The notes under the pieces: generated by a model
Seen by the model: the letters and a program-made list of their open reading frames with translations, nothing else
Told to the model about the DNA's origin: nothing
Databases searched by the model: none
Part shown: piece by piece, positions 36,270-64,000 of the stretch
Numbering within the stretch: position 1 is the first letter of the stretch
How the letters are laid out: every line of letters begins with the position of its first letter
DNA from: Symbiodinium sp. CCMP2592
Lineage: Eukaryota > Sar > Dinophyceae > Suessiales > Symbiodiniaceae
NCBI GenBank assembly: GCA_905221615.1
Contig: CAJNDT010006145.1
Location: 1 to 64,000, forward strand
DNA length: 64,000 nt
Reading direction: 5' to 3'
Made by a program: the position numbers and the translations under genes

Positions 36270-37090
36270 ACCTGGCACAGGGTTTACAGTTTCAGGGTCT
36301 TTAGGGTTTGGGGTTAGAAGGCAGAGTGCCATAGTATTAGGGGTTTGAGGGTAATGAAAGGGTTAGGGTTAGAGTTTCAGGGTCTTTATTATATTTAGGG
36401 TTTGGGGTTAGAAGGCAGAGTGCCATAGTATTAGGGGTTTGAGGGTAATGAAAGGGTTAGGGTTAGAGTTTCAGGGTCTTTATTATATTTAGGGTTTGGG
36501 GTTAGAAGGCAGAGTGCCATAGTATTAGGGGTTTGAGGGTAATGAAAGGGTTAGGGTTAGAGTTTCAGGGTCTTTATTATATTTAGGGTTTGGGGTTAGA
36601 AGGCAGAGTGCCATAGTATTAGGGGTTTGAGGGTAATGAAAGGGTTAGGGTTAGAGTTTCAGGGTCTTTATTATATTTAGGGTTTGGGGTTAGAAGGCAG
36701 AGTGCCATAGTATTAGGGGTTTGAGGGTAATGAAAGGGTTAGGGTTAGAGTTTCAGGGTCTTTAGTATTTAGGGTTTGGGGTTAGCAGGCAGAGTGCCAT
36801 AGTGTTAGGGTTTGAGGGTAATGAAAGGGTTAGGGTTAGAGTTTCAGGGTCTTTAGTATATTTAGGGTTTGGGGTTAGAAGGCAGAGTGCCATAGTATTA
36901 GGGGTTTGAGGGTAATGAAAGGGTTAGGGTTAGAGTTTCAGGGTCTTTAGTATATTTAGGGTTTGGGGTTAGGAGGCAGAGTGCCATAGTGTTAGGGTTT
37001 GAGGGTAATGAAAGGGTTAGGGTTAGAGTTTCAGGGTCTTTAGTATTTAGGGTTTGGGGCTAGAAGGCAGAGTGCCATAGTTTTAGGGTT
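36270..37090. repeat. 94-bp minisatellite carrying GGCAGAGTGCCA
   Basis: GAAGGCAGAGTGCCATAG recurs at about 36317, 36411, 36505, 36599 and 36693 with exact 94-bp spacing, then four more times (to 37062) with small indels. Each unit also holds TTAGGGTTTGGGGTTAG and GGGTTAGGGTTAGAGTTTC, so it joins telomere-like sequence with the dispersed motif of the region to the right. Confidence 0.95.
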
Positions 37091-37282
37091 TGATAGTATT
37101 AGGGATGCACAAATCGCGTGAAGTGGCTACGAACTGCTGGATGTTGCGCTTTTCTGCGTTGACCACACTGTCAAGCGAATCACGTGCAGGCGAAGCAGGG
37201 TACAGCTGGGTGACGCGACAACGTCTGGCACTCTGCCTTCCCAGCTGCTGGCACTCTGCCTTCCCGCCTCAAGATCCATTAA

Positions 37283-37768
37283 TTATTGCCACCCCAACTT
37301 TGCACAAAGCTGGTCGGTCAAAGGTATTGCTCCAGCATCAAGGTCAGGAAGTTCCCCCGGACCACCGAGACGGATGGCAACAAGTGAGAGGTGTTTCATC
37401 TGAAGGACAAACTGCCGTTGTTGTTCATCTTCGTCGTTCCAAACATAAACAAAATCACAAACGAGAGAAACGCGCGGCAACTCCAGCGGTTCTTCTCCTT
37501 CACCCACCTGATAACACTTCGGGAAGGGGCCTTGGTACCGTCGAAGAAGCCTGAGGCCTCCTGTAATGCGGGAGCCAATACGTGGCCAGTAACGCAGGTA
37601 GCGAACCATGATTTCCCAAGGCACGTCGTCATAAACTTCATTCCATCTCTCAGCTGGTTTCCACTGGTCAGGCGCTTTGGCCAATTTTTCGCAAGCGGTT
37701 TTGATCAAGATTGGGGAGAGCTCGCCTCTGAAGAAACACTCTCCTCGTTCGATCGGGGCGAAATGCAT
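37283..37768 (-). CDS. Unknown protein, 161 residues, probably a last exon
   Basis: The frame opens with ATG at 37768, five codons after an in-frame TAG. The sequence is mixed and protein-like (FRGELSPILIKTACEKLA, DDVPWEIMVRYLRYWPRI), with no recognised domain. It lies downstream of the 38-39 kb gene on the same strand, and the 280-bp space between may be an intron. The frame ends inside a pair of dispersed motifs' neighbourhood at 37250. Coding is likely from composition, but the gene boundary is uncertain. Confidence 0.5.
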   Translation of the reverse strand: MHFAPIERGECFFRGELSPILIKTACEKLAKAPDQWKPAERWNEVYDDVPWEIMVRYLRYWPRIGSRITGGLRLLRRYQGPFPKCYQVGEGEEPLELPRVSLVCDFVYVWNDEDEQQRQFVLQMKHLSLVAIRLGGPGELPDLDAGAIPLTDQLCAKLGWQ

Positions 37769-38048
37769 TGCTCTGGACGGCTACTGTTCAGTCACAAGCA
37801 CGCACGGCTTCAAACCACATGTGCTAGTTTGTGCGGCTTCCGGGTTGTGGCACTCGAAATGATTGTCCATGTGCTTGCACGTGACAAATTCCACATGTGT
37901 GAAAATGCGAACATGCTTTCGCAATCCGTCTTCCCCAAGCAGAAACACACAGTCTCTCGGACGCATTCCAATCTAGCAGGACCCGCTGCCATCAATGCAA
38001 GCACACAGACAGACACACAACTTTTCTTTGCAGCGCAGGATGAATCCT

Positions 38049-39236
38049 CTAGTTGTTGCCAGGCCTCCTGGTCGGGCCACAACAGGGCCTATGGTCAATG
38101 ACGTGTTGTCTGGCCTGCGCTTCTGTCATCTTGGAAGCCACACGTCCCCAGTGATAGGGTACGAGGTGGCTCCACTCGCCTTCAATGCCAGACACACATG
38201 GGTTCATGTAATGTGACACAACACACAGCAGATCAGGCAACCACATCGAAGCTATAACAAATGTTCCGAATCTTTCCAAGAGACCGCCGTCTGTCACACG
38301 AACTCGGAGAAACCATTTTGCTTTGTCAGTGCCACCAGGATTCGGGTCGTACTTCATCTCACCAGCGATCTTGGGACACTCCGGGCATTGAACAGGTGTC
38401 CATACCCCTTGGTAGTCAACACGGTTCGGCCGCCGCTGATGTTGGGGGCCACGGACTGCAACCTCCCGTGGCTCGAGTGCTGGGATAGGCACTGCAGGCA
38501 CCTCCGGCATCTCAGCAGGAGGGGCTGGCACTCTGCCTTCCTCGGGCTCCACGTGATCATCAGGCTCTGGGACAGGGATTGCAGCAGGCACCTCCGGCAT
38601 CTCAGCAGGAGGGGCTGGCACTCTGCCTTCCGCGGCCTCCACGTGATTATCAGGCTCCGGCTCCACCGGCACCTCAGCAGGAGGTGCTGGCACTCTGCCT
38701 TCTGCTCCCTCTTGACCACTTTCATCAGGAGGCGCGGGTTGCTTCCTGGGCAACATACGTGGGCGACAAATCTTTCTCTTGGCTTTCCGTTTGGCCTGTG
38801 GCTTGGCCTTTGCTTTGGTCTTTGCTTTGGCCTTGCCCTTTGCCTTGGCCTTTGCTTGCTGCGTCTTGATGGCCTGCCAGGTTTGATGCACCCTTTTGAT
38901 TCTGCGTTTTCTGACTGCGTCTGAGACCATTTTAAATTCCTGTTTGTCCTCAGCAAGCAGGTCGTCAAGAACCAGCTCATCAACAAAGTCCCCCATGATA
39001 ATGTCATCCTCATCCTCATCCTCTGTTGAATCTTTGGCTGTCGAATACATAGCCTCAATTTTGCGCATGAAATCCTCATCTTCCGGAAGGTGATGAGAAG
39101 CGATCAGGCTCATGAGCTTTGGACGGCGCATTCGTTGCAGCTCCTTTCGCTTTTTTTCGTCTACGTTTCCAGTCTGGGAGATCACATGCTCGGCGAGATT
39201 CTGGCAGTCTGCGAGAGTCCGACATGCTTGTGACAT
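38049..39236 (-). CDS. Unknown Lys/Ala- and Pro-rich protein with EGRVP repeats
   Basis: ATG at 39236 starts MSQACRTLADCQNLAEH; the frame is open slightly further upstream (to 39272) but without ATG. The N-terminal third is acidic (EDEDEDDIIMGDFVDEL). It is followed by a basic KAKAKGKAKAKTKAKAK tract, then three repeats of EGRVPAPPAE joined to Pro/Glu-rich spacers. The C-terminal 130 residues are more globular, with CPECP near their start and CVSGIEGEWSHLVPYHWG. Each EGRVP is an in-frame copy of the dispersed motif. The basic tract suggests nuclear or nucleic-acid-binding function (inference). Confidence 0.6.
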   Translation of the reverse strand: MSQACRTLADCQNLAEHVISQTGNVDEKKRKELQRMRRPKLMSLIASHHLPEDEDFMRKIEAMYSTAKDSTEDEDEDDIIMGDFVDELVLDDLLAEDKQEFKMVSDAVRKRRIKRVHQTWQAIKTQQAKAKAKGKAKAKTKAKAKPQAKRKAKRKICRPRMLPRKQPAPPDESGQEGAEGRVPAPPAEVPVEPEPDNHVEAAEGRVPAPPAEMPEVPAAIPVPEPDDHVEPEEGRVPAPPAEMPEVPAVPIPALEPREVAVRGPQHQRRPNRVDYQGVWTPVQCPECPKIAGEMKYDPNPGGTDKAKWFLRVRVTDGGLLERFGTFVIASMWLPDLLCVVSHYMNPCVSGIEGEWSHLVPYHWGRVASKMTEAQARQHVIDHRPCCGPTRRPGNN

Positions 39237-39342
39237 TTCCCTCAGTCGAGTCAGCAAAAACAAGCACAGCAAAACTTATATAAGTTTATTGTACTATTTA
39301 CTGTATGGGTCGACAGTTGACAGAATCCTAAATGAAAACATG

Positions 39343-42216
39343 TCACTTGGGATGCTGCAACATATAGGATAGAAGTGACACTGAGCTTGTAGCACAACGA
39401 CGGAGGCAAATGAAGCCATTCCAGAAGACTGCCTCTGTTTCGATGACTTCCCAATACTGGGGCTCATACAAATGAATCCAGCAGGCCTTGACGCTGGAAC
39501 CATCCGGGCACTCTGCCTTCAAAACAAAATATATCTCTCCTGTCGACTGGTCCTCATGCTGGACCACTGGCCACATGAGAGCAGCCCAGGTTTTTGCCCC
39601 AAGAGAGAGATAGCATGTCAAATCCAAGACATGGTTCAAGATCTTCAAAGGGGCTGCAAGGCTGCTAAACTTCCCAGCACGCAAGGGAACATGCTGAGAT
39701 GCCAGTCTTGCATCATTGTAGTGAATTAGCCATGACCACGCAGCTGATGCTCGTTCGAGTGTCTCTTCTGACAGGGTGTTCCATGTCTTGTCGCCGACAA
39801 TCTCGGTATACTGTGACGGCAGCTTGTGGACACATCCTCTGAAGCACAACTTTTGGCGCTTCCTGTCCACATTCCAAAACTCCCTTTCAAAATATTCCCG
39901 TTTGACTTTTGCCGGATGCCTGATTGAACGGCTTTCAAAGACGTTTGAATTCTCGATCACAGTTTGAATCGTGGAGTATGTTTGCTTGCGGGTTTTGTTC
40001 AACAAAGAATCATTACGAATCTTGTTGTGCACATCTTCCACAATCTTGTTGTCTGGCAGCGTCTGCACCAGAACACTCAGCAGGTGGGTTGCAGGGCATG
40101 CTGGTACCGATATTGTTACAGTCCTTTGAGCTGGCACTCTGCCCTCTTGCCCGTCTAACAAAATGTCACCAACTCCGGCACCGTCATCTGCTTCTTCAGG
40201 CACAGAATCCTCCATCTCCCCGTCCTGCTCTGTGTCAACATCATCCACGACAATGTCTTCTGACCCCGGAGGCGCCACTTCATATCCCTGTGCCTCCAAT
40301 GTGTCCAGAAAAAGTCTCGAAGGATGGCTGATTCCAACTTGCAGGTCTGTGAAGAGTTGCCGGGCATGAACACTTGGAGTGGACCGTGCCAATGTCGACT
40401 CCAACCTCAAGAGTGATGTGTGATGGCCCTTTGCCTTCAAAGCCGTGATCGTCCGAATTTCTGCATCAGGTGACAGCAATCCCGCATAGGCATCTGGTGG
40501 AAGTGAAAAAAGACTGCAAGTCCAGACCCTGTTCATCAGCAAATGCAAGCTCAACATCATGATTTTTTCTGCGGGCTCGTGTAAATCAGTATCCAGATGC
40601 TCCTTCCACAACTCGGTCTTCTGCAGGTTGGAGACAATCTGCAACAAATGTTTGTCTGCTTTCCAGGCATCATTCACTGTCATCAACTCGGCATAACCTC
40701 GACCATCCTGCGGCGATTTAACGTTTTTTACTTGTTTCCCATACCATGTCCACAACGGTTCGGTCACTTTGTACAATATCTTGGAGTGATCGAAAAGGTC
40801 TTCTGTCATGAGATAGTATGCCAACTTGAAGCCCCCCATGCTGGCTTTCAACAAGCTGAGTTCTTTCCGTGGATCAGTGGCACGACCAGCCTGTGACAGC
40901 TTTTGCAAATCACCCAGTGCATCTTCCTGCCTCTCACCATTGTCAGAGTCCGGCACTCTGCCTTCGGACTCTGGCACTCTGCCTTCGAAGAGCTCCTTGC
41001 CCGATTGTGTATTCGCCGAGTTGGAATACAGGCTGAGTCTTTCCCTTGAGCAAGGGCTGAAAGATTGATCTTCACCGAAATGATCAGCCAGCAGCATTTT
41101 GAGGACATGAAACTCATGAAGTTGCTCACAACATAGCTGGTTCCAGCTGAACCATCTGGAGGATTTCACCAAGCTGCCCTTCTTCATGAAGGATTCGACA
41201 TTTGCAAGCATATGTTCAATCTCATGCTCGTCACCGGATAGCTGCCTGTCTAAGTCATAGGCAATCTTATCTCGAAAAGCGTCCCACAACAAGCTTCTGC
41301 TCGGTGATGTGCAGGAAACAAAACTCGCCAGCATTTCCTTCTTCTGCTGGTAGAAACCACCACTTCCAAAGGGTTTATAATTCAGGGCAAAGATGTAAGA
41401 GGAGTGAAGTTGTGCTTTCAGGAAGAGTCCTTTGAGGCATCTCGACATGCTGTTTTTGAAATCTCGAATGGCCCTGTGAATCTTGTCACATTTCACATGA
41501 ATCATGTTTTCACGCATAGCATAGGCCATGCCAGCAAGTCCGATGCTGCCCTGGTCAAGGCCCAAGACCAGCAGTGGAATGTTCAGCCACCACTTCTCTG
41601 ACTCTGGCAAGACGGGGAGCACATTTGTGATCTCTCCATCCTCAGACATTGTCTTCAGAAAGGAGACATGAGGAAAAGCTGGTGGCACTCTGCCTTCTGG
41701 CACTCTGCCTTCTGGCACTCTGCCTTCAGCCGGATCCGGATTGTCCCTCAACCACTGAAAACAGCGGTCAATGTCATTGTCTTCTTTTCCAACTTGGAAA
41801 ACCACCCTGCTTTCATATCTTTTCACAGGCCTCTGCCCAAGAGAGGGGGCGATCTTGAAAGAGCCCAAATCCATTCGCCCTCTGTGCAAAATCCAGATTT
41901 GGTGACTGATCGCTTGAAGCTGCCTGAATGCAGCAATCCTTTCCAGCTTCTTTCGCTTTGATATGTGAAGAAGCAGGTCGTCGTCAAACCGGTCTTGTGG
42001 AGAAACTTGTCCAGTCTTCATCACTTGCATGGGTGCAAACACTGCAGCAGAAATCTCATTCGCCCAAGCCACTGTCACAAGACAATCGCTGGTGCTGTGA
42101 GTAGACCCATCGGCGATGAAGTTGATTTGTCGACAGTGCTGCATAGCAGTGATAGCTCTCTCCTGGTACAACCGATTGGTTCGAAGCTGCCACTCGTCAC
42201 AGCTGGACTCAGGCAC
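39343..42216 (-). CDS. Large unknown protein, 957 codons, possible transposase relative
   Basis: The open frame begins with GTG at 42216 right after a CAGCTCAG|G acceptor-like context, so this is probably an internal or last exon rather than a full gene. Conserved-looking blocks include FIADGSTHSTSD (residues about 34-45), LLVLGLDQGSIGLAGMAYAM (about 225-244) followed by HRAIRDF, and a C-terminal region with WSWLIHYNDARLASQHVPLR. The DGS and DQGS aspartates with a later HRxxRDF recall RNase-H-fold transposases, but I cannot place a third catalytic residue. EGRVP occurs seven times, including a triplet near residue 165 and two copies near 415. Neighbours are same-strand unknown proteins. Confidence 0.65.
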   Translation of the reverse strand: MPESSCDEWQLRTNRLYQERAITAMQHCRQINFIADGSTHSTSDCLVTVAWANEISAAVFAPMQVMKTGQVSPQDRFDDDLLLHISKRKKLERIAAFRQLQAISHQIWILHRGRMDLGSFKIAPSLGQRPVKRYESRVVFQVGKEDNDIDRCFQWLRDNPDPAEGRVPEGRVPEGRVPPAFPHVSFLKTMSEDGEITNVLPVLPESEKWWLNIPLLVLGLDQGSIGLAGMAYAMRENMIHVKCDKIHRAIRDFKNSMSRCLKGLFLKAQLHSSYIFALNYKPFGSGGFYQQKKEMLASFVSCTSPSRSLLWDAFRDKIAYDLDRQLSGDEHEIEHMLANVESFMKKGSLVKSSRWFSWNQLCCEQLHEFHVLKMLLADHFGEDQSFSPCSRERLSLYSNSANTQSGKELFEGRVPESEGRVPDSDNGERQEDALGDLQKLSQAGRATDPRKELSLLKASMGGFKLAYYLMTEDLFDHSKILYKVTEPLWTWYGKQVKNVKSPQDGRGYAELMTVNDAWKADKHLLQIVSNLQKTELWKEHLDTDLHEPAEKIMMLSLHLLMNRVWTCSLFSLPPDAYAGLLSPDAEIRTITALKAKGHHTSLLRLESTLARSTPSVHARQLFTDLQVGISHPSRLFLDTLEAQGYEVAPPGSEDIVVDDVDTEQDGEMEDSVPEEADDGAGVGDILLDGQEGRVPAQRTVTISVPACPATHLLSVLVQTLPDNKIVEDVHNKIRNDSLLNKTRKQTYSTIQTVIENSNVFESRSIRHPAKVKREYFEREFWNVDRKRQKLCFRGCVHKLPSQYTEIVGDKTWNTLSEETLERASAAWSWLIHYNDARLASQHVPLRAGKFSSLAAPLKILNHVLDLTCYLSLGAKTWAALMWPVVQHEDQSTGEIYFVLKAECPDGSSVKACWIHLYEPQYWEVIETEAVFWNGFICLRRCATSSVSLLSYMLQHPK

Positions 42217-42956
42217 ACCTGAGCTGGCAAGTCAAAGAGCGATTCGTTCACTTCAATAAATAGTTGAGATACAAGTACAACTTGGACTTCAACACCATGC
42301 GCAAGCAACACCATTCTTCGGCCTCCCATGGAAGAGTCCGGGTCACCCGGGCTTCGTCATTTTCGGGAGGGGCCACCTGGCACGTTAGCGCATGTGTCCA
42401 GATGTCATGGTCGGATGCCCGCCGACCGTTGGCCCCAACCCCCCCCTAGACTGCACGACCCTGGGGCCCTTTCCCTGGCTCCACACCCGGCCAACAGTGT
42501 GTCGGTAGCTGCCAAATTGGCGGGCATGCAGCTGCCGCTTGGTAGAGCAACACACACCAAACCCCATTCTGAACATGTTGGCACTCTGCCTTCGACAAAC
42601 ACAACCGAACAGCAAGCCAAGCAAGGTTCTCTGCTCAATAACACAACCATGTCCCAAGAACGGACGGCGTCCCTTCTTTGTTCGGAACCTGGAAGTCTGG
42701 CCCGGACAACACGATCCGAGGTCGCAGAAAATCCAGCTAGGTAAGGCAACCTTGAGGAGGTTCGACTGACACTCTAATTACTGTACTTCTGCTCGATATT
42801 TGGCCTCCCATGTTGCAAAGGGGGACACTCGGGTGCCGAGCTCGGACCCAGCCAGCACGTTAGCCCATGTGTCTGGCTGTCATCACCAGGTGTCCGCTCT
42901 GGTGGTTGGCCCCAAGTCCTCGTTCGGTTCCGTCTTCCACGGTCCCCCAAAGCGAC

Positions 42957-43127
42957 CCCATGCCCGGCCATCGGCATGCAAGCGCGGCTGGTGAATCAAA
43001 ACTGGACACACCGCGACTTGTTGGTAAGGTCCGTGTGACAACCCATGCCCGGCCATCGGCATGCAAGCGCGGCTGGTGAATCAAAACTGGACACACCGCG
43101 ACTTGTTGGTAAGGTTGGTGTGACAAA
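42957..43127. repeat. Tandem duplication of about 85 bp
   Basis: CCATGCCCGGCCATCGGCAT through GACTTGTTGGTAAGGT and GTGTGACAA occurs twice in a row (about 42957-43041 and 43042-43127) with almost no differences. Confidence 0.9.
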
Positions 43128-44275
43128 GAATTCACTATAATCTTAAACAACTGGCTAACAAAACAACATTCTACTATGAATGAGACGGAGGAACACACCA
43201 GCTCAACAACACAGCCATGTCCCAAGAACGGCCTCCCTTCTTTGTCCGGTATTGCTTCCGGTGACTTGCATGACTGCTTCGATGTCACCAGGTCACAGCC
43301 CCAGCCGGCGCATTAGCCCATGTGCCCGGCTGTCATCTACCCCCTGCCCCTGGGATAGGTTGGCCTCAAGGCTGTGACACAGGCAAACCGAACGCCTCAC
43401 ACATGGCCAATGGTGTGGGGAGCAACCCTGGTGGGGCAGGGGTTTACTCCTTAGGTAAGGCAACACCGAAGAGGTTCGACTGGCACTCTGCCTCGGCACT
43501 CTGCCTCTGTCGTCGATCCAAGAGAACAGAAAGCATGTGCTCAGCAGAAAGAGATATAGCCTAATCATGGGTTAGCGGCCTCCCCCATTTGCTGAAATCC
43601 ACCCCACTCGGCCAAGGTGGGTCGCCATGCTCACAGGGAATGAATTAAGATGACAGCGCTGTGCCGGATCCCGTCGCAGCTGTTGCTCAGCAGGCCATTT
43701 GGCACACCTGCGATGTAACAGATCCCGGAGACTTGGTTTGCTTCGGCGTAAACATCGCCCGCAACGCGCCGATAGAAACAAACCAGGCACAGGCCGAAAT
43801 CACCCTGTGAGTAGCAGGCTCTAGGCACAGCTGGCGGCTGGGGTAGTGGAAACTTACAGCAGGCTGCTACACTGCCACTACAGGCCATGCCAAACGATCA
43901 ACGATAGACCTGATCCCAGGGCCACTTGCGCGCAAAAGTGAGCACAGGCAAGAACTGAAGAAGGCACTATCTCACCCTTCTCTTTACAACACAACTCAAG
44001 CGGCCTCCCTTTTAGGATCTCACCGGGGGGGGAAGGACACACCCGCCCCCCATTTAAGCCACCCCCAGCAGGCGCATTAGCGCATCGCCCTGCTGTCATA
44101 CCCCTCGGGCTGTAGGGGAGTTGGCCCCAAGGGTGGCCGCCACGAGGCCACGCAGGCGTCAGTGGCCAAGCTTTCAGCTCCGGATGGATCGCTGCCCCCA
44201 ACACGGCCAACAAGATGGAACCTGGCAGGTCTCTAGGGCCCCCTCGGCCAGCCCGCTGCTCAGGTTTAGGTCGGG

Positions 44276-44957
44276 CAAGCGAATCGACAAGGACGTTTAT
44301 GATCAAAAGCAAGCACAGCAAACCACTAAACCCTACTAAACCCTGAGAAGTTTTACTGGCACTCTGCCTTTGGCACTCTGCCTTTCAAAAAATTGATCAC
44401 AACCTGACGTAATTGCTATAATACTCGATTCGGCCTCCCAAGTTGCAGAGGAGGACACTCGGGTGCAGACCTCGGACCCAGCCAGCACGTTAGCCCATGT
44501 CACACCGGGCCTCCCCTCCGAACCGCCCGAGCGATGCTCACGCAGAGACTAAGGAGCTCCCAGCCGGCACGTTAGCCCATGTGTCCGACTGTCATACAGA
44601 GAGCACAGAGCTCTCTGCGTTGGCCTCAAGAGCTCGAAAAACTCGATGCAGCGGCCCCCCAGCACCCGGCCAGCGGTGCTGCAGCACACAACTCGAACTG
44701 AATCTCGAAAGAAGCGTTCGGCGGAAGTGCACCGTGGGTAAGGGCAGGAGACTTGTAAGCTGCCCTGCACTACGTTCTTCCCTCAGAGCCCTGTGCGAGA
44801 CACAGCGAGTCCTGGGTAGCGGCCACACTCCACATGCCGGCAAGCGAATCGACAAGGATTTTCTGATCAACAGCAAGCGCAGCAAACCACTAAACCCTAC
44901 TAAACCCTGAGAAGTTTTACTGGCACTCTGCCTTTGGCACTCTGCCTTTCATAAATA
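44276..44957. repeat. Repeat pair of about 110 bp bearing doubled palindrome motif
   Basis: AAGCGAATCGACAAGGA through CAAACCACTAAACCCTACT and a doubled TGGCACTCTGCCTT occurs at about 44276-44390 and 44840-44957, with small differences between the two. Confidence 0.85.
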
Positions 44958-45432
44958 TTAAATGCACAACCTGACTTAAGCATCCCTTTCTGTAACGGCC
45001 TCCCCGGCGTCTTTGCAAAGACGAACGTGCTCTGACAGTCATGCGGACCGGAGACTTAGGCCACCCCCATTCGGCCGAGATATGGGGTCACCCCGCTCTG
45101 CCATGGGGATATGAGGCTCTCAACGACCACTAGCAGCTGCAAGCATTTGCCCGCGCTATGCTTATGTCGCCCTCTGCTCGCAAAGAAGCAGGACGTCGTG
45201 GTCGTCGTGGTGCCATCCCAGAGTTCGCAGCGGATACTTCTGCCCCCGACATTACCTTCTGCTGGACTTGGCCAACAGCTTGGCGCAAGAGCCGAACGTC
45301 GGGTCGGCCATGGCAAGAGCGGTAGTCGAATTTAGTTCGACTGTGGCGCGGGTACGTGGCATCAAATGAATGTGTGACAAAGAATTCACTAATCTTAAAC
45401 AACTGGTTAACAAAACAACATTCTACTCCATA

Positions 45433-46485
45433 TCAAATCACCAAGGAACCATGCAGGTCGCTGCGTTCGTCCTGGTTCTTGAGAATGAGGGCTTGTCGCA
45501 AAGAGGTCCCACTTTTTGCAGCGCCCTCTAGCAACTTCCAGATGCTTTTGATGTCCACAGTCTTTTTCAATGGAACACGCTTGCCCAGAAGTGCCCTGCG
45601 AGACGTCACAGGCACACCAGCATCATGTACACTCAAGTAGTGCCCAATGACATACACCTGGAGGCCGGCTGACAATGTCTCGGACAGACACTCATGTATG
45701 TGCATGAAGGCATTCACGACTGTCTTGGCAAATCCATGAGCCTGCCCCGACGGTTGAAGCGCTCTGTGTTTTTTTGCCATGGTTGCAAAGGCGATGATGT
45801 CGTAGATGCTAGTTTCAACCTCCTCCCAATCTCGTGGCACTCTGCCTTCAGATTCATCTCGGAGAGATGAAGACAGCGTCCTTGCATTGAACATAGATTC
45901 CCAAAGCTGACGCAAAGATCGGGACGTGTTGCCTGCCAGCGACTTCATCATCCAAGCGGCAAAGCCTGACACCAACCCAGCTGATTGAAGAAACCATGAC
46001 ACTCTGCCTTCATCCAACTGCATGACCAGAGGCTCATCACTGATAGTTTCACACACACGTACCATAGCATCATTCAGTTTTCTCTTGTACCATTCCCTGT
46101 GGGCGTCTGTCCTTGTGTCGAAGGATGCTTGCAACATGAATCGGGCCAAGGCTGTGGAAGATGCCACATCCTCCTGTACAGCATCAGGGTTTGGCACTCT
46201 GCCTTTTTGACTTTGCACATGTGACCCCCAGTTCGCAGCCAAGGGGGTCTTCCTGAGAAGATCACTGAAGAAGTTGTACCATTTGTGGTACTGTCGACGT
46301 TCTGAGCCGTTCCTGTTGCTCTCATCGAAAAACAAGTCCAGACGCCACCACAGTTCGCCCTGTGAGAGCCAAGCTGCTCTCGCTGGCAGTTTTGCATCAT
46401 TTTCCAAGTTAAGCAATTGCCCATCACGGAGCAATAGCATGACCCACAGTTTCAGAAGCATCACCGAAATCCTCCAAAGCAACAC
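45433..46485 (-). CDS. Unknown protein, 350 codons
   Basis: The frame opens with GTG at 46485 following a TACAG acceptor-like context; the first ATG is eight codons in. The sequence is globular in composition (WWRLDLFFDESNRNG, AHREWYKRKLNDAMVRVCE, FAKTVVNAFMHIHECLSE). In-frame motif copies read QKGRVP, DEGRVS and SEGRVP. DEGRVS at about 46005 shows a decayed motif (GACACTCTGCC on the plus strand). No family is recognised. It may be one exon of a gene continuing from the methyltransferase-like block upstream. Confidence 0.55.
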   Translation of the reverse strand: MLLWRISVMLLKLWVMLLLRDGQLLNLENDAKLPARAAWLSQGELWWRLDLFFDESNRNGSERRQYHKWYNFFSDLLRKTPLAANWGSHVQSQKGRVPNPDAVQEDVASSTALARFMLQASFDTRTDAHREWYKRKLNDAMVRVCETISDEPLVMQLDEGRVSWFLQSAGLVSGFAAWMMKSLAGNTSRSLRQLWESMFNARTLSSSLRDESEGRVPRDWEEVETSIYDIIAFATMAKKHRALQPSGQAHGFAKTVVNAFMHIHECLSETLSAGLQVYVIGHYLSVHDAGVPVTSRRALLGKRVPLKKTVDIKSIWKLLEGAAKSGTSLRQALILKNQDERSDLHGSLVI

Positions 46486-49510: not shown

Positions 49511-49543
49511 GGTGCTTAACTTTAAATATCTTTGATCCAACAA

Positions 49544-52605: not shown

Positions 52606-52665
52606 CTCAGTCAGTAAGGCTTATCTAGGCTTTGTGGGGGGAGGGTTCAGGGATCATTGCTGACC

Positions 52666-53100: not shown

Positions 53101-53285
53101 TGCTCTCGGCGACTGTCTCTGGCACTCTGCCTGGAAGCACCACTGCAGCACTAAGGGACTCGATCTTGAACACACATATGTTGATTGCGGCCAGGTCAAG
53201 AAATTCTTGCGCATCCACTCACTAGTCACTAGCGTCCGTACACACTACGTGGCATGGTCCCATCAACGGCCAGATAGCAAGCGTT

Positions 53286-53714: not shown

Positions 53715-53810
53715 GGACGAATGGGATGAAGAAGAGGAGGTCCACTAGATGGCTTTGTTTTGGCAACACAATTAAGAAACCTACTCGTTCAGCTCAATCA
53801 TTGACACTGA

Positions 53811-54797: not shown

Positions 54798-54800
54798 GAC

Positions 54801-55787
54801 CCGAGCCCGAAGGCTGCCGCAAAACCCAAGAGTGCGACTGCGCCAGTGCCTGGAGAGGTGAAGCCTTTCTTGGAAGCGGAGGAGGACCTCGGAATTACGG
54901 ACCCCCAAGGCAGAGTGCCAAGGGGTCAAAACAAGATCAAGGTTCCAGCCGAGCTTTTGCAGCCAGAGACTGAGGAGGAGAAAACTCTCAGAGCGTTGCG
55001 GGGAATGCTGCCATGCAGTAACAGGGCGGTGACGACTTCGAAGGTGGGCCGCCTCGCCAATCGGGCACGTATGGCGAGACCGGTGCCACAAGATCAGCCG
55101 TTCAACCCCCAGCACAACGATCGGAAGTTCAACAGCAAGACTACGACTGTCATGACCCAGCTGCTCATGGCTGTCCATGAGATCACAGTCCGAGAATGCG
55201 AGAAGAATAACGTGCCAATGGAGAGAAAGGACATGGCGTGGAATGACTTTCGGTCGAAGGGCTCGAAAACTGCGGTTGTCTGGGAGCTGTTGCGTGACCA
55301 GGGCGTGAAGGAGATTCCAAACAATTCTGAGCCTGGGGACTGGCACCTGTGGCTTCAGAGGGAAACTGGGGTGGCGGTCATTGAGCAGATTCTCCAGTGC
55401 ATGTTCAATGTCACTCCGCCAGTTCATGGCCGTGATCGAGTCAAGGGAAAAGAGCTGACATACTGGCACTGGTGGCTGGCCTCCAAGAGACTCCTTGAGG
55501 TTTATACGACGGAAGATGTCATCTCAAAGGAAAAATTCAGGCCCAAAGACCTGCAGAGCTGGATTGTGCCTTTGTCCTGCAAGATTTGGGATGCTTACAA
55601 TTACACCATGCTTGTGTATTGTCAGAAGAAGCTGGAACAGAAGGCAAGGGGGGAAGACCTAGACGCGGTGAGCCAGATGGGTGATGATGTCCCGCCATCG
55701 GAAGATGAAGAGTATGTGGAGGTTTACCAGACCACTGCGAACTTCGTTCCTGATTGGGGAGTAACTGCAGATGGCTTTCAGGATTGA
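54801..55787 (+). CDS. Unknown gene, right-arm copy, 5' truncated at the palindrome centre
   Basis: The reading frame is open from the palindrome centre: PSPKAAAKPKSATAPVPGEV, then ITDPQGRVPRGQ, then the ordered block with MTQLLMAVHEITVRECEKNN and WELLRDQGVKEIPNN. Formally the frame extends left to 54129, but that part is antisense of the other copy and not real coding. The QGRVP is a dispersed motif in frame. No start codon is available, so the 5' end is lost at the junction. No domain is recognised; the tail is acidic and Ser/Glu-rich. Confidence 0.65.
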   Translation, partial: PSPKAAAKPKSATAPVPGEVKPFLEAEEDLGITDPQGRVPRGQNKIKVPAELLQPETEEEKTLRALRGMLPCSNRAVTTSKVGRLANRARMARPVPQDQPFNPQHNDRKFNSKTTTVMTQLLMAVHEITVRECEKNNVPMERKDMAWNDFRSKGSKTAVVWELLRDQGVKEIPNNSEPGDWHLWLQRETGVAVIEQILQCMFNVTPPVHGRDRVKGKELTYWHWWLASKRLLEVYTTEDVISKEKFRPKDLQSWIVPLSCKIWDAYNYTMLVYCQKKLEQKARGEDLDAVSQMGDDVPPSEDEEYVEVYQTTANFVPDWGVTADGFQD

Positions 55788-55883
55788 TCAGTGTCAATGA
55801 TTGAGCTGAACGAGTAGGTTTATTAATTGTGTTGCCAAAACACAGCCATCTAGTGGACCTCCTCTTCTTCATCCCATTCGTCC

Positions 55884-56312
55884 TTGGGCACTGGGGACTT
55901 TCACAAGGCAGAGTGCCAGAGAGTTCTCGGTGTGACTAATGCAGAGTGCCACCAAACAGTGTGGCCTGTTCAGATTCATTTTTGTGTCGCTGTCACTAGG
56001 CAGAGTGCCGGAAAGGCAGAGTGCCAATGTGAAATCGCATTTCTTGGGGCGTTTGAATGTTGTCACTTTTGCGGTCCGTCTGAGCTGGCACATTTCAGCT
56101 TGCCGTTTTGGAAAACAAAGACGATGCCTATGCATACAGTCATGTCGGCAGTAACTCGATGGATTAATTACTGTGCCTGTGAATTGATTGGTTCAACCTT
56201 GGTTTCCTGTGACAGCCCCATAAAAACTTTCAGGTGCTGGCGTCCAAGGTGGTTGGCTACTATGGCAAGGCTGGAATGCATGATGCAAGTGATTGTGAGT
56301 TGTGGAAGCTGA
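55884..56312 (+). other. Open frame of doubtful coding value (right arm)
   Basis: Mirror copy of 53286-53714. The motif at 55938 is mutated differently from its left-arm counterpart at 53647. Confidence 0.3.
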
Positions 56313-56497
56313 AACGCTTGCTATCTGGCCGTTGATGGGACCATGACACGTAGTGTGTACGGACTCTAGTGACTAGTGAGTGGATGCGCAAGAATTTCTT
56401 GACCTGGCCGCAATCAACATATGTGTGTTCAAGATCGAGTCCCTTAGTGCTGCAGTGGTGCTTCCAGGCAGAGTGCCAGAGACAGTCGCCGAGAGCA

Positions 56498-56932
56498 ATG
56501 GGAAAGTCGAGGAAGAGCGCTCGTGTGAGTGATCAGATGATGTCCCCAATGCCGGGGGCAATGAACCCAGCAATGGGAATGAACAACCCACTGGCCATGA
56601 TGAACCCTTTCATGTTGCAACAGCAGCAACAGATGCAGCAGCAGCAACAGATGCAGCAAATGCAGCAGATGCAGCAAATGCAGCAACAGAAGCAGATGGC
56701 TGCTGTGGGTGAATCAAGGCAGAGTGCCAACGACTCCTCCTCGTCGGAATCAGAAGACCAAGAAGTGAGGAGGATTCGTAAGGAAACCAAGAAGAACAGA
56801 GCAAGGCAAGCAGCAACGATCGGGATTGATCGGCTGGCAACGTCCACTACCGATGCAGATGCAATCCCGAGAAGCGCCACGACATTGCGTTCGATCACTC
56901 TGGCTGCTTGTCAATCAACAGAGTATCCCTAA
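56498..56932 (+). CDS. Gln/Met-repeat protein (right arm)
   Basis: Mirror copy of the frame at 52666-53100, starting at ATG 56498 (MGKSRKSARVSDQMM). It differs by about three residues (for example a Lys inside the Gln/Met tract). It ends 60 bases before the RING-protein exon, in the same arrangement. Confidence 0.55.
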   Translation: MGKSRKSARVSDQMMSPMPGAMNPAMGMNNPLAMMNPFMLQQQQQMQQQQQMQQMQQMQQMQQQKQMAAVGESRQSANDSSSSESEDQEVRRIRKETKKNRARQAATIGIDRLATSTTDADAIPRSATTLRSITLAACQSTEYP

Positions 56933-56992
56933 GGTCAGCAATGATCCCTGAACCCTCCCCCCACAAAGCCTAGATAAGCCTTACTGACTGAG

Positions 56993-58616
56993 GTGAAGGT
57001 GAAAGCTCTGCTCGAGCGAGTTCATAGTGCATGGGATGCTGCGGTCACGGCTGACCTGCCACAACAAACAGCGCTGCAACTGCTCTCCATATTGACCAAT
57101 CTGAAGCCGACCACAAAGGTCAGTGAACTCAGGGTCGATATGAAATACAGCTTGCTTGGTCAGCGATGTGAGAATGCCCATAGGCGTCAATCCGTCTGCG
57201 ATCGCAGCAGTTGGAACCGCATAGCCAAACCGGTTCTGGGACTGGGGGTGAATATGTCTGAGCATTCTGTTGACAGGGTTGCCTTGGAGTGTGGATGGCA
57301 GTCCACATGGATGACCGAGGCTGTCACGACCTATGCCAGGCGTAGAGCGAGAGCAAGGCAGTCCACTGAGACGCAGGGACGTCTCAGTTTCAATCCGAGT
57401 CCTGCTCCAGCTGCCCCGCAAACGGTTCCGCCGTCGGAAGGCAGAGTGCCAGACGTGGTCCGTTCTGGTCCTTTGCCAACGACTGCTCCTAGTTCCAATC
57501 CAAGCCAGGCTGTGGGTCGCAGCCCGGCTGGGGAACAAGGCAGAGTGCCGATTCAACAGCCGCCTGCCTCCCCTCATGCCGTGCCGGGTTCCAATGCAAG
57601 CCAGGCAACCGAAGGCAGCCAGGCTGCAGGAAGTGAACAAGACAGAGTGCCGAGGGTTGTGGAAGGCAGAGTGCCAGTTGATGGGAATGCTCCTGCCATG
57701 GATGACGATGGTCTAGCGCCGGCAGAGGCAGAGATCAGGCCCGATCAGGAGATCGTCATGCCTCCTGCAGAAGTGACCACTGCACCTCAAACAGTTGAGT
57801 TGCCAGAGCCAGACACCTCCACGAACAGTGTCTCGACAGCCGGTGCTGACGTGAATGCCGTTGTGCCCTTTGCGACACCCAAGTCGAAAGCCAAAGCAAA
57901 AGCCAAGGGCAAGTCGAAAGCCAAGGCCAAGTCCAAGGCCATGGCGACGGCACCAAACACAGAGTCGCAGGACGAGGTCGCAGTCGAGGTCGATGATGAG
58001 GTCATGGCCGAGGCCGGGGCCGAGGTCGAGGCCGGGGCCGAGGTCGAGGCCGAGGTCGAGCGCGAGGCCGACGACAGTGCCTTCTTTGAGGAGGAGGCGG
58101 AGGATGCTCCGAATGAGTCGAGCAGACCTGCGAACCGGTGGAACCAGGACCTCTGTGTCATTTGCCATTCGGAGATGCACCCGGGCCAGGCAGGCTGTTT
58201 TCGTTTGCCTTTGGTTAATGAACCATTGATAGTGGTGCCTGTCCTGTTTGTACATTCCACTAATCCTCAGAACAGTACCTCTCACATGACGTGTCTTTTT
58301 CTGTTGCTTCCCTGGAATGCAGGCATTGGAAGCGCTATCGTGTGGCCAACTCTTTCACAGCGAATGTATCAATCGATACTGTGAGTCGACCGGGCGGAAC
58401 AAGGCCACCGCTTGCCCTCTCAAGTGTGCGAGCTCAGCCTCTATGGCAAGGTTCTTTTTGGGTCCGAGGGGGTCCACGGGAAGCAATGCCCCTGTTCCTG
58501 TCGAAGATGATGCTAATGATGTGGACGCAATCGTTCAGGAAATACAAGCTCACCTCGTTGACGACCGCACTCGTGAAGAGGAAGCTCCTGAGGTCAACGA
58601 CCCCGTGGTGGACTGA
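56993..58616 (+). CDS. RING-H2 protein (right arm), two exons
   Basis: Exons are 56993-58189 and 58323-58616 with a 133-bp GC-AG intron (58190-58322) at the same site as the left arm. The joined frame is 496 residues. RING cysteines and histidines are all kept (CVIC, CGQLFHSEC, CPLKC) except that the position after CG is Gln where the left arm has His: the left reads CGHLFH and the right CGQLFH. This removes one zinc ligand in the right copy. About ten other residue differences occur along the first exon. The first exon again starts with GTG after a TGACTGAG acceptor-like site. Confidence 0.8.
58190..58322 (+). other. GC-AG intron, 133 bp (right arm)
   Basis: The boundaries CCAG|GCAGGC and TGCAG|GCATTG are identical to the left-arm intron. 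Confidence 0.85.
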
Positions 58617-60082
58617 TTGCGTCGACAAGGTGGCTCGGTAACAAGGCAGAGTGCCACAATAACTGGCTCATGTGTATGTGTTGTCGGTGATGTGGCCTCG
58701 AGTCTTATTAATTTTGGAGTTGTGGCAATGCCATTGTCACAGACATGTTTCTGAAGGCGGAGTGCCATGGGTTGTAACATGTGTTCCATGATCATTATGT
58801 ATTGACATGATTGTGTTGCCTTGTGTTGCATTATGCCATCAGGAATGTATGTCTCTTTGTAATCCCAGGCAGTCTGTCGATTTCACAAGGATACTGCAGA
58901 TGCCTGTGGACAAATCCGCGCCAAAGGCAGGATCCAACCTGTCCTAGAACACCAGTTGGGAGGGACCCAACAAAGGACCACGGAAGTCTGCAATGGGGTG
59001 CATCCGTGTTAAAAAAACATATGGCCTTTGAAGGGACACCATCCCCATACCGCCCCACAGGCCCTGCAAAATCTGAGAAGACATTTGTGACACTTGTGGC
59101 ATGCCCCGGAAAAATCTTATTGAATCTTATTGAATCTTATTGAATCTTATTGAATCTTATTGAATCTTATTGAATCTTATTGGTCCATCATTTTTAAAAG
59201 GGACACGACTCCAGATCGCCCCAAAAAATCTGATTGAATCTTATTGAATCTTAGAAGACATTTGTACAATTGTGGCCTACCCCGAAAAAATCTTATTGAA
59301 TCTTATTGAATCTTATTGAATCTTATTGAATCTTAGTGAATCTTATTGAATCTTATCGGTTTTACAAGGGACACAGCCTCCAGCTCGCCCAAAAAATCTT
59401 ATTGAATCTTAGAAGACATTTGCAGGATTGTGGACTACCCGAAAAAAATCTTATTGAATCTTAGTGTTCGGGCCATCACGTTTTGAAGGCACACCGACCC
59501 TGTACCAGACAATTGCACACATGTAGCATCCCCTCCCAAAAGTCTTGTTGGAGCTTATTGAATCTTGGGAGCTAGTTATACAATATCGAATCCCATTGAA
59601 TCGGCACAGTCCAGCTAACCCAAACAAATCCCTACGAGTAGTAACACATCTTATGATTAAGCATAAACTAGGTGGCACTCTGCCTTGAAGTACCTTTAAA
59701 CCATGGACCTCCTTAAAACCTAAAACCCTGAAGCTCTTTTAAACCCTAAACCGTTACTGTGTGTGGTAAGTTTACACATAAACCTAGGTATATGTATAAC
59801 ATACATACATACATATAGATATATGTATGGATTATATGCATACACTTATTATTGGGCATACTGCTTTCGAACATTAAACTACATCATCTATTAATAGCAC
59901 TCTGTCTTCAAATATGTGTTAATCTAATGATCATGTGCATAAATGCTTGTGTCGTCCAGTGGAACCTACTGCATGTGGTATTGAAACGGACATGACAATC
60001 AACTTCTAGTACCTGTTCGTACTATCCAACACATATAGTTGCTTGCAGCTTGTTGGATCAAAGATATTTAAAGTTAAGCACC
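58617..60082. repeat. Gene-free stretch, right-arm copy, with TTATTGAATC arrays
   Basis: Mirror of 49544-50981. Arrays of the 10-bp unit lie at about 59112-59180 and 59288-59365, with copy numbers and single substitutions different from the left arm. Degraded CCCTAAA repeats lie at about 59725-59755. Confidence 0.85.
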
Positions 60083-61093
60083 ATGGCACCGAAACCGAAG
60101 GCCAAACCGGCAGCAGCGGGGAGGATCGGCGGGGGGAGGACTCCGAAGCGACGGCCTCGTAGAGTGCCGCCAACCGGTGTGAATGGCATTGGTGAAGAAG
60201 GTGGTGGGGCGGAAGGCAGAGTGCCAGGGCCACAAATGGGTCCGCCGCCACCAACGCCTGTGAATCGGCCACCTTACCCACCTGGCCCAAGACCTCCCGC
60301 CCCTGCGCGCCATGAGTTTGAGATTGCCCAAGCTGTGGCAGAAGCGTTGGACATTATGGAGACCCCGATCATGATCAACTTCGAGCCGGATGTGGTTACT
60401 GTTAGGGAGGGCCGCATGGTTCTGGTCACCCTTGAGAACTTGACCCCTGAAGAGATGCAACGTCGGCAGTTGGGACGGCGAATTTGTGCCATGTGTTTCA
60501 ATGCTCCAGACAACCCGCCGCCACCAATAGTGCCGCCAAGGCCGATGCCTGAAAATGGCTATCCTGGCCCTAACAATAATGCCAACCGTGGAGCTACTGA
60601 AGGCAGAGTGCCAGAAGGCAGAGTGCCGGAAGGCAGAGTGCCAGATGAGTTCGAAAGTGGAGTTCGTGGTCAAATGTTTTTTCGTTTGGAATCTCGCCCG
60701 GATGCCTGGTTGACTGGGCCAGCTCGTGCCGAAGGTGAGATTCACGCCTCAGACTCAGATGTGATGGAGGAAGGTGTTCGAGATGTTCGTCTTGGTGAGC
60801 TTGGAGGGCGGGGTCGTTTGGGTATTGATTATGGGCACATCTCAGAAGAAGACCCGGACTGGAGTCAGCGCGGCTCAGCGGATGATGGAGCCCCCTCAGA
60901 TGTGGAGGAAGGTGAGGAGTCAGACAATGAGGAGAGGGACGCACTGGACGAAGCTCAGTCGTCCCCAGACTCAAATCAGTATGATTCTGCAGGTGAAGGC
61001 AGAGGATTTCGCATTCGTGGTCGTCGATCGGGGTATATCGCCTCAGAACCACCCTCCGACTGTGAGCCACCTGAAGATTTCTGGTGGCCCTAA
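60083..61093 (+). CDS. Acidic Pro-rich unknown protein with EGRVP triplet (right-arm copy)
   Basis: Mirror copy of 48500-49510, starting at ATG 60083 (MAPKPKAKPAAAGR) and ending near FWWP. All features are kept: Pro-rich start, RRICAMCFNAPDN, EGRVPEGRVPEGRVP and acidic tail. The few differences include Ile/Met, Ser/Arg and Leu/Arg replacements. Confidence 0.6.
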   Translation: MAPKPKAKPAAAGRIGGGRTPKRRPRRVPPTGVNGIGEEGGGAEGRVPGPQMGPPPPTPVNRPPYPPGPRPPAPARHEFEIAQAVAEALDIMETPIMINFEPDVVTVREGRMVLVTLENLTPEEMQRRQLGRRICAMCFNAPDNPPPPIVPPRPMPENGYPGPNNNANRGATEGRVPEGRVPEGRVPDEFESGVRGQMFFRLESRPDAWLTGPARAEGEIHASDSDVMEEGVRDVRLGELGGRGRLGIDYGHISEEDPDWSQRGSADDGAPSDVEEGEESDNEERDALDEAQSSPDSNQYDSAGEGRGFRIRGRRSGYIASEPPSDCEPPEDFWWP

Positions 61094-61500
61094 GGTTGAT
61101 GTCTTTCAATGACAGCTTGGAAACTTTACAGAAGGCAGAGTGCCAAGAATGCTTGTGTCTGCCACCTCGGTGGCCTCGGAATCGTCGAGGACGATGGATG
61201 GACTGCTGTGTGCGGTCCCAGAAAAACGAGAATCGAGTGAGGGTCTGGCAGTGCTGTATTTGATTGCTTGAGCATGAAGTCATGGTCTGCAACAACTATG
61301 CCACATGTGAATTTCAACGAGTGATTGCATCATGTCTGTCTCATCCTTGTGTTGTGATGGATCAATCGACTCACAAGTGTGTCAAGTGCTGAATGTGCTG
61401 GTTCACAATTACGTTGTTAATTCGAACACCCTTGAGGTTAAGGTGTTACACTTTCTTGCGGATAGGACAGAGTGCCTTGCACAGTGCAATTCGGAGTGCC

Positions 61501-62380
61501 ATGTCTGCAGCAGCAGATGACCCGGCTGAAACAAGAAGAAGACTGTTAGCAGACATTCGGCGGCAGTTTGATGCAAACATCGCACTGGAGAAGAGATTCT
61601 TGGCCATTTCGAGAGGACAGGATGTTCTGCGCCTTTGCGAAGTTGACCCGTCGCTTCTGGAGTTCCATAATGAAGGTCCTTATGACGTTCTGCCTGAGTG
61701 CAACTATGATGTGATTCTTGAAGCCAGTGGGTTTTCCTGGATGATATCAATCTGGCAACAAATGTTATCAGAAACTTTTCCCATCATGACTTCGGGGCCA
61801 TGGAAGAAACAGATGAGATTCCTCATCAACTTTTGTCATTGGAAGCGGAACATAAGGCAGAGTGCCAGGTTCCACTTCCTGGAGATCTTTGCAGGGCAGG
61901 GCAACCTCAGTCGGGAGATGCTCCGTGCTGGCTGGCAGGGGCTAGCCTTGGACATCATGTACGGCACAGATCATGATATTCTTTCTGTGAGAGGACTTCG
62001 CCTGGCTGTCAATGCTGTGTGTCAAACACACAAACACGGCCTGTTGTGGTTTGGAACTCCATGCTCTTCCTTCGTCCAACTCTGTAAATACAGTACTGGA
62101 AGGTCCATTGCCAAGGACTGGATGGGAGAACCTGAGCGATCGCTGGCATGCCAAGAAGGCAATCGTTTCATGTATGTGACGCTGCTGTTGACTTTGCTCG
62201 CGGCTTTGAATGAAAACCGGTTTGTGATCGAGCAGCCTTGCTCCAGCATGCTGTTCGACATTCCACTCGTCGATCGTGTCATGGGAATGATCCAGGCTAT
62301 GAAGGTCAAAACCTATGGTGGTGCCTTCGGCCAGCCCATCCTGAAACCGCTTCAACTGTGGAGCAACTGTCAGCACATCA
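61501..62380 (+). CDS. C5-cytosine-methyltransferase-like protein (right arm), cut by the gap
   Basis: Mirror copy of 47043-48092, from ATG 61501. Motif I FLEIFAGQGNLS, motif IV GTPCSSF and motif VI FVIEQPCSS are intact. The frame runs into the N gap at SNCQHI, so the motif-X-like C-terminus is not seen. It differs from the left copy at about five residues. Confidence 0.75.
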
Positions 62381-62480
62381 NNNNNNNNNNNNNNNNNNNN
62401 NNNNNNNNNNNNNNNNNNNNNNNNNNNNNNNNNNNNNNNNNNNNNNNNNNNNNNNNNNNNNNNNNNNNNNNNNNNNNNNN
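62381..62480. other. Assembly gap (100 N)
   Basis: Exactly 100 N, the conventional size for a gap of unknown length. Sequence before it belongs to the inverted arm; sequence after it is a direct repeat of 49664 onward, so the join skips or inverts sequence. Confidence 0.98.
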
Positions 62481-64000
62481 CATTAGATTAACACATATTT
62501 GAAGACAGAGTGCTATTAATAGATGATGTAGTTTAATGTTCGAAAGCAGTATGCCCAATAATAAGTGTATGCATATACTCCATACATATATCTATATGTA
62601 TGTATGTATGTTATACATATACCTAGGTCTATGTGTAAACTTACCACACACAGTAACGGTTTAGGGTTTAAAAGAGCTTCAGGGTTTTAGGTTGTAAGGA
62701 GGTCCATGGTTTAAAGGTACTTCAAGGCAGAGTGCCACCTAGTTTATGCTTAATCATAAGATGTGTTACTACTCGTAGGGATTTGGTTGGGTTAGCTGGA
62801 CTGTGCCGATTCAATGGGATTCGATATTGTATAACTAGCTCCCAAGATTCAATAAGCTCCAACAAGACTTTTGGGAGGGGATGCTACATGTGTGCAATTG
62901 TCTGGGACAGGGTCGGTGTGCCTTCAAAACGTGATGGCCCGAACACTAAGATTCAATAAGATTTTTTCGGGTAGTCCACAATCCTGCAAATGTCTTCTAA
63001 GATTCAATAAGATTTTTTGGGCGAGCTGGAGGCTGTGTCCCTTGTAAAACCGATAAGATTCAATATGGTTCAATAAGATTCAATAAGATTCAATAAGATT
63101 CAATAAGATTCAATAAGATTCAATAAGATTTTTTCGGGGTAGGCCACAATTGTACAAATGTCTTCTAAGATTCAATAAGATTCAATAAGATTTTTGGGGC
63201 GATCTGGAGTCGTGTCCCTTTTAAAAATGATGGACCAATAAGATTCAATAAGATTCAATAAGATTCAATAAGATTCAATAAGATTCAATAAGATTTTTCC
63301 GGGGCATGCCACAAGTGTCACAAATGTCTTCTAAGATTTTGCAGGGCCTGTGGGGCGGTATGGGGATGGTGTCCCTTCAAAGGCCATATGTTTTTTTAAA
63401 CACGGATGCACCCCATTGCAGCCTTCCGTGGTCCTTTGTTGGGTCCCTCCCAACTGGTGTTCTAGGACAGGTTGGATCCTGCCTTTGGCGCGGATTTGTC
63501 CACAGGCATCTGCAGTATCCTTGTGAAATCGACAGACCGCCTGGGATTACAAAGAGACATACATTACTGATGGCATAATGCAACACAAGGCAACACAATC
63601 ATGTCAATACATAATGATCATGGAACACATGTTACAACCCATGGCACTCCGCCTTCAGAAACATGTCTGTGACAATGGCATTGCCACACCTCCAAAATTA
63701 ATAAGACTCGAGGCAACATCACCGACAACACATACACATGAGCCAGTTATTGTGGCACTCTGCCTTGTTACCGAGCCACCTTGTCGACGCAATCAGTCCA
63801 CCACGGGGTCGTTGACCTCAGGAGCTTCCTCTTCACGAGTGCGGTCGTCAACGAGTTGAGCTTGTATTTCCTGAACGATTGCGTCCACATCATTAGCAGC
63901 ATCTTCGACAGGAACAGGGGCATTGCTTCCCGTGGACCCCCTCGGACCCAAAAAGAACCTTGCCATAGAGGCTGAGCTCGCACACTTGAGAGGGCAAGCG
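62481..64000. repeat. Third copy of 49664-51192, direct orientation
   Basis: The sequence follows the left arm from TTAGATTAACACATATTTGAAG through the ATTCAATAAG arrays and the RING gene's second exon. It has its own substitutions (for example GGGACAGGG for GGTACAGGG, and GCAGCCTTCCG for GCAGACTTCCG) and shorter second array, so it is not simply the left arm repeated. Confidence 0.95.
63793..64000 (-). CDS. RING-H2 protein second exon, third copy, partial
   Basis: The C-terminal frame ending at the TGA (63793-63795) is the same as in the other two copies (PEVNDPVVD end), with Asp-Ala instead of Asp-Asp in the VEDD stretch. It runs off the window before the zinc-binding residues. Confidence 0.75.
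   Translation of the reverse strand, partial: ACPLKCASSASMARFFLGPRGSTGSNAPVPVEDAANDVDAIVQEIQAQLVDDRTREEEAPEVNDPVVD

Follow-up and report, generated by a model that had tools for sequence, protein, structure and literature searches.

The window analyzed here is a stretch of 64,000 nucleotides from Symbiodinium sp. CCMP2592 (contig CAJNDT010006145.1, positions 1 to 64,000, forward strand). Its right-hand part contains the left portion of a 31.4-kb DNA transposon with terminal inverted repeats (TIRs). This element is filled with copies of an 11-base interrupted palindrome, GGCACTCTGCC, which we call the word. We tentatively propose that the word is a recognition tag of the transposon family. The features of the locus are listed below by position and strand (ORF, open reading frame; aa, amino acids). 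The intact copy used for comparison lies on contig C5318, and P0009 is a related database protein.

35845..35900, + strand: left TIR, which begins TCATTGCCCCTTTGCACCGAACC (left end shared among copies; ~52-bp inverted match to the right end of the C5318 copy)
35845..54798, - strand: left ~60% of one transposon copy, with gene-like ORFs on the - strand (alignment to the C5318 copy)
36300..37093, - strand: terminal minisatellite, 94-bp unit, 8.5 copies, 9 reversed words (word and tandem-repeat searches)
37227..37260, + strand: word doublet (word search)
38049..39275, - strand: ORF of 408 aa, 3 words read as EGRVP; no Pfam match
39343..42231, - strand: ORF of 962 aa, EGRVP encoded by 6 words and KAEC by 1; conserved across 25 proteins of the database; corresponds to the later portion of the gene that is fused in P0009
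42232..45432, - strand: probable intron, 7 main-orientation words, six of them in tight doublets; flanking ORFs match successive parts of P0009
45433..46497, - strand: ORF of 354 aa, 2 exact words (KGRVP, EGRVP) and one with a mismatch (EGRVS); aligns with the N-terminal part of P0009
47043..48200, - strand: ORF of 385 aa, two words in the RQSA frame, one exact and the other with one mismatch; resembles a cytosine methyltransferase by eye
48500..49597, - strand: ORF of 365 aa, EGRVP encoded by 4 words, of which three are tandem (ORF translation)
49909..49919, - strand: the sole reversed word outside the terminal minisatellite (word search)
51214..52620, - strand: ORF of 468 aa, 3 exact words (EGRVP, QGRVP) and a one-mismatch word (QDRVP) (ORF translation)
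53811..54725, - strand: C-terminal part of an ORF of 1,293 aa, 1 word (QGRVP) in this part; the ORF is complete in L033:2591-6469
54799..64000, no strand assigned: inverted duplicate of the part to its left and a further partial copy behind a gap of 100 N; probable assembly fold-back

The word is abundant in the window and in the genome

A preliminary description of this DNA had reported dozens of near-identical copies of the palindrome from 36.3 kb on and none in the first 36 kb. Up to one mismatch, 77 sites of GGCACTCTGCC were found in the window (68 exact and 9 with one mismatch), all after position 36,300. In contrast, 100 dinucleotide shuffles of the window gave a mean of 1.64 such matches and a maximum of 5. 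At the same threshold, no site was found before position 36,000, although six near-misses with two mismatches exist in the first 36 kb. Both claims therefore hold. The sites are distributed over ORFs, spacers and the 94-bp minisatellite as singlets, doublets or triplets, as had been described; the periods within doublets and triplets are 13-16 bp, in some cases 21-23 bp.

The copies had also been said to fill the region from 36.3 to 64 kb. The sites are real, but 24 of them (19 exact and 5 one-mismatch, beyond position 54,799) are mirror images of sites further left. The segment 54,800-62,380 is a ~99% identical inverted duplicate of 47,213-54,798, and beyond the gap at 62,381-62,480 another partial copy follows (62,481-64,000). 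At the center of the fold-back, two arms of 3,966 bases form a near-perfect palindrome with 55 differences and 1 base between them. This duplicate is probably a fold-back error of the assembly. Because the matches beyond 54,799 mirror those on the left, the independent evidence consists of 49 exact and 4 one-mismatch sites between 36.3 and 54.8 kb.

The 79 main-orientation sites of one intact element (up to one mismatch) were used to derive a consensus. The word is preceded by T in 57 of the 79 and followed by T in 72 and by a second T in 70. Thus, the 11-mer is an interrupted palindrome as described, but the conserved core, T-GGCACTCTGCC-TT, extends slightly beyond it, and the added bases are not part of the palindrome.

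A genome-wide count against controls had been proposed as a check. In the assembly (G000; 1.098 Gb, 5,383 contigs), GGCACTCTGCC occurs exactly 20,442 times (10,552 + 9,890), whereas the same letters read backwards occur 244 times (126 + 118).

The carrier is a 31.4-kb DNA transposon

The intact copy, C5318:1273895-1305341, is 31,447 bp long; 40 kb around it were read (loci L031-L034). Its TIRs are imperfect and ~52 bp in length. The left end is common to 11 fetched loci and the window, each with different flanks, and the right end was found in 4 loci. All three copies in which both ends were read possess 5-bp target duplications (AAAAA, TAAGG and TTTAC). Because of its inverted ends and 5-bp target duplications, the carrier of the word is a DNA transposon, one of unusual size.

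The word is concentrated in this element. The C5318 copy contains 84 exact words and the 8.5 kb fetched around it contain none. Contig C1 has no listed forward word before base 1,148,045, whereas the genome mean predicts ~11; from this base on, the first 100 listed words lie within 39.5 kb, where an element ORF is found. When a 2,938-base piece of the window was compared with the genome, 585 candidate places were obtained at first look; 40 were scored, and all 40 were reported to be 100% identical. At 84 words per element, the 20,442 words correspond to ~243 element equivalents, which is an estimate and not a count of elements. The genome-wide excess of the word is best explained by recent amplification of a single giant transposon family.

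These results change two points of the preliminary description. The unit had been considered too short for a transposon; it is short, but it travels inside one large transposon that had not been noticed. An origin of all copies by duplication of a few source segments had been named as an outcome that would refute the finding. Genome-wide, this is largely what was found. Inside the element it is not, since the words fall into 42 clusters separated by more than 100 bp, the flanks of which are mostly dissimilar, although some flanks are themselves repeated.

In a search for a recognizable transposase, no Pfam model of any kind scored above chance in the 15 scanned members of the 962-aa protein family. 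Likewise, Pfam gave no match to the genes expected of a Maverick/Polinton (protein-primed DNA polymerase, retroviral-type integrase, capsid) in the scanned element ORFs, a scan that covered ORFs other than c29000-30325 and not the inter-ORF stretches. We describe here a 31-kb DNA transposon family, the scanned ORFs of which match no Pfam model. The titles and abstract openings retrieved from the literature contain no description of this element, no relevant context for the 11-mer written as GGCAGAGTGCC or GGCACTCTGCC, and no match to the peptide GRVPEGRVP.

Orientation and placement of the word within the element

Of the 84 exact words in the C5318 copy, 72 have the main orientation relative to the gene-like ORFs and 12 are reversed, 11 of them in the terminal minisatellite. 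Outside the minisatellite, the ratio is therefore 72 to 1. Counted by clusters of words more than 100 bp apart, it is 42 to 1; in this count 67 main-orientation words were used, 5 having been set aside as part of an internal 2.6-kb duplication. Because the listed + words are on one strand and the gene-like ORFs on the other, transcripts of these ORFs would contain AAGGCAGAGUGCCA. Ten counted ORFs contain 40 of the 72 main-orientation words; the other 32 lie elsewhere, including the 3.2-kb region at 42232..45432, which we read as a probable intron because consecutive portions of P0009 are matched by the two ORFs that flank it. In this region and in L034:2200-2950, blocks of ~300 bp are repeated (GGCCTCCC ... 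GTTAGCCCATGTG ... GTTGGCC), often ending with the word; no Rfam family fits the blocks of the window. A second repeated segment, at 50236-50485, consists of 10-bp repeats (ATAAGATTCA), and its length is variable among element copies.

All 30 fetched loci possess the same 7 words in a 2.9-kb core. These loci, the window included, are the hits most similar to the window, which biases the sample toward identity. A more diverged copy (L035; 97.3% identical to the window over the main match) has one word with a substitution. The number of tandem units varies by copy: L042 has 15 bp fewer (in frame), and differences of 13 and 14 bp are found in L041 and the C5318 copy, respectively. The earlier suggestion that the word is a tiny mobile insertion is not supported for the present day, given the same places at all 30 loci of this sample.

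The word is exact at the nucleotide level in coding regions

Nine ORFs of the C5318 copy contain 35 words, which are read in the GRVP frame in 26 cases, in the RQSA frame in 6 and in the KAEC frame in 3. Two of the nine RQSA or KAEC words precede the first likely start codon of the 1,293-aa ORF, and four are in ORF c29000-30325, which is uncertain as a gene. All 26 GRVP sites are spelled GGC-AGA-GTG-CC, and GRVP does not occur in these ORFs with any other spelling. Elsewhere in the nine ORFs, GGC, AGA and GTG account for 34%, 19% and 42% of their respective codons. Because the spelling of GRVP is uniform despite this mixed codon use, constraint or copying acts on the nucleotide word rather than on the peptide. 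The preference for the GRVP frame suggests that a pentapeptide of this mild and flexible kind is tolerated best.

The 1,293-aa ORF has an N-terminal region with a predicted fold resembling that of protein kinases; we refer to it as the kinase-like gene. The 962-aa ORF gave a poor fold model. In the ORF at 47043-48200, methyltransferase-like signatures are visible by eye (FAGQGNLS and GTPCSSF), but Pfam and PDB sequence searches gave no support for a cytosine methyltransferase. Neither the methyltransferase-like ORF nor the kinase-like gene is tied to the word.

Relatives that are ~40-50% identical in protein possess GRVP at both shared and different places. For example, four relatives of the kinase-like gene, P0027, P0028, P0029 and P0033, contain 5, 11, 11 and 3 GRVP, respectively. 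At the gene's own sites 484 and 674, GRVP is present in all four; at site 317 it is present in three, at 635 and 649 in two, at 1002 in one, and at 310 and 791 in none. The first 60 residues of P0029 include GRVP, KAEC and RQSA, and these can come from one word only if that word is GGCAGAGTGCC. Three more distant relatives lack GRVP and instead contain GVLP (five times in P0006) or GVVP (three times in P0005 and five times in P0007), largely at linkers where the family of the window has GRVP. Linker d of the 962-aa protein has ~6 more residues, with KAEC, than that of relatives without the word. One distant relative, P0016 from Polarella glacialis, matches at 31% over 59% of the query.

Comparison with known systems

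Several systems share part of these properties. The transposons En/Spm and Ac have subterminal repeats, clustered near their ends, to which transposase binds. These are likewise short repeated motifs in DNA transposons, but the words run throughout the element described here, genes included. Rickettsia palindromic elements, ~100-150 bp long and found genome-wide in a bacterium, are also palindromic units in frame within genes; the unit here is 11-15 bp and belongs to one transposon family. Bacterial DNA uptake sequences and HIP1 are short, exact, dense words in coding and non-coding DNA, but they are spread over whole genomes, whereas the word is packed into one element.

Introners are small repeated gene inserts reported in many eukaryotes (PMC9860276). 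They are spliced out of the mRNA; in contrast, the 11-16 bp unit is read through in open frames.

The closest likeness is to the targets of VANC proteins of VANDAL transposons (MULE). The VANC21 and VANC6 target motifs in Arabidopsis are reported to be short, family-specific, of high density and in the same orientation, and to differ between related VANDALs (PMC5735166, PMC10398659). The word resembles these motifs as described there: it is short and exact, belongs to one family, is dense and co-oriented, appears to differ in relatives, and undergoes tandem gain and loss. However, VANC motifs are mainly non-coding and tandemly repeated, and their elements measure several kb. The present element is 31 kb in length, most clusters of the word are dispersed, and more than half of the words (40/72) are within ten ORFs, many of them in frame. 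Pfam detected no VANC-like domain in the scanned element ORFs.

The word as a possible recognition tag

We propose, with a probability of about 0.45, that the giant transposon uses the word as a cis-acting recognition tag specific to its family, similar to a VANC target but also placed in coding DNA. The packing into one family, density, single orientation, nucleotide exactness and apparent concerted change of the word are what a recognition site for an element-specific factor would look like. Among the earlier suggestions, a binding or processing site thus fits best, although its mechanism is only inferred. We limit the proposal to a VANC-like function and do not assign the element to that group, because many words are coding and most clusters are dispersed and not in tandem.

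The mechanism may be as follows. A putative sequence-specific, trans-acting reader, most likely encoded by the element, would read the word along the whole element and so mark it as self. The word would be read as duplex DNA or, less likely, in nascent RNA. The most likely use would be protection of the element from silencing by the host, which is what VANC proteins do for VANDAL; alternatively, the reader might recruit the transposition machinery. Selection for dense sites would have retained words where they are least harmful, in genes mostly as linkers of the type E/Q/K-G-R-V-P, and local slippage of 13-16 bp units would alter their number. If the specificity of the putative reader shifted, the words of a family would change together. 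We go further with more reserve in suggesting a coding-embedded address code for self-recognition or anti-silencing, present in nearly every gene and in the spacers, in which each family holds one exact, oriented word against synonymous drift and rewrites its words jointly (GRVP to GVVP or GVLP) with a co-evolving putative reader; this extended form is rather doubtful.

Several observations weigh against a recognition tag. In contrast to VANC targets, many clusters are in coding sequence and the majority are dispersed. No repeated 4-mer peptide of the GRVP kind was seen in six more distant relatives (P0008, P0009 and P0011-P0014), and the switch from GRVP to GVVP or GVLP is known from peptides and not from DNA. 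The genome copies are too alike for selection on the word to be measured, and the trans-acting reader is itself putative.

The orientation bias would also be expected if the word acted in RNA. Transcripts with AAGGCAGAGUGCCA could form a 4-bp stem with a 3-base loop, to which an RNA-binding protein might bind for export, stability, splicing or self-recognition. The 72 to 1 orientation extends over spacers, ORFs and the probable intron, and a weak fold of the single strand is predicted (-4.4 kcal/mol). However, the complementary strand folds about equally (-4.1), and several of the few one-mismatch words break the stem without compensation. Orientation is not decisive, because the gene-like ORFs all point one way, so transcript sense is inseparable from DNA polarity, and the VANC motifs, read as DNA, are also reported to be one-oriented (PMC5735166). 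Such an RNA tag is unlikely in our view. We give a similarly low chance to a functionless micro-repeat, spread within the element by template switching and slippage and multiplied by the transposon with no reader. The differences in unit number among L042, L041 and C5318, and the extra residues in linker d, are consistent with this process. In contrast, sites common to families ~40-50% identical in protein have the word without a changed letter, an exactness that would be lost in a functionless repeat; its orientation is nearly uniform, and no place in the core was gained or lost at the 30 loci of the biased sample.

A Chi-like signal that promotes gene conversion and keeps the copies alike would account for an oriented, dense and exact word, and for the identity of all 40 scored copies of the 2.9-kb piece. 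Because recent amplification alone explains that identity, we consider this quite improbable. Least probable by far is a signal at the peptide level, in which GRVP linkers serve for docking or cleavage and the DNA word arises secondarily. The predominance of the GRVP frame (26/35) and the recurrence of GRVP linkers in relatives are in its favor, but it is largely refuted by the codon identity, since the nine ORFs never spell GRVP with synonymous codons, and by the non-coding copies: the word is equally exact outside ORFs (32/72). It is also present in two further frames, RQSA and KAEC.

It is surprising that an oriented, nucleotide-exact word occurs 84 times in one element, genes included, and has apparently been replaced in related families. 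If the recognition tag is real, sequence-specific self-recognition of transposons would extend from plants to a dinoflagellate-like protist, and such a code could be imposed on protein-coding sequences, with proteins shaped as a side effect. The many near-identical copies, the exact word and relatives that seemingly use other words provide a test system. As a caution, when a short palindrome is found dispersed in a large genome, it can belong to the internal code of a single element instead of being a genome-wide feature.

Other observations in the window

No spliced-leader sequence was found in the window; TTTAGGG-type repeats are present and, like the genome size and the relative in Polarella glacialis, point to a dinoflagellate, perhaps one of the Symbiodiniaceae. 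A tandem array at 18554-20894 has a 259-bp unit in 8.4 copies (91%), with partial units of 147 bp. Between 1315 and 15711, there are very long - strand ORFs of 2,404, 2,071 and 477 aa, and the 2,071-aa ORF matches an RVT_2 (Copia-type) reverse transcriptase (E 8e-17). Arrays of TAGTACAGTAG repeats flank these ORFs (143-738 and 16192-16639), as in an element of the long terminal repeat type.

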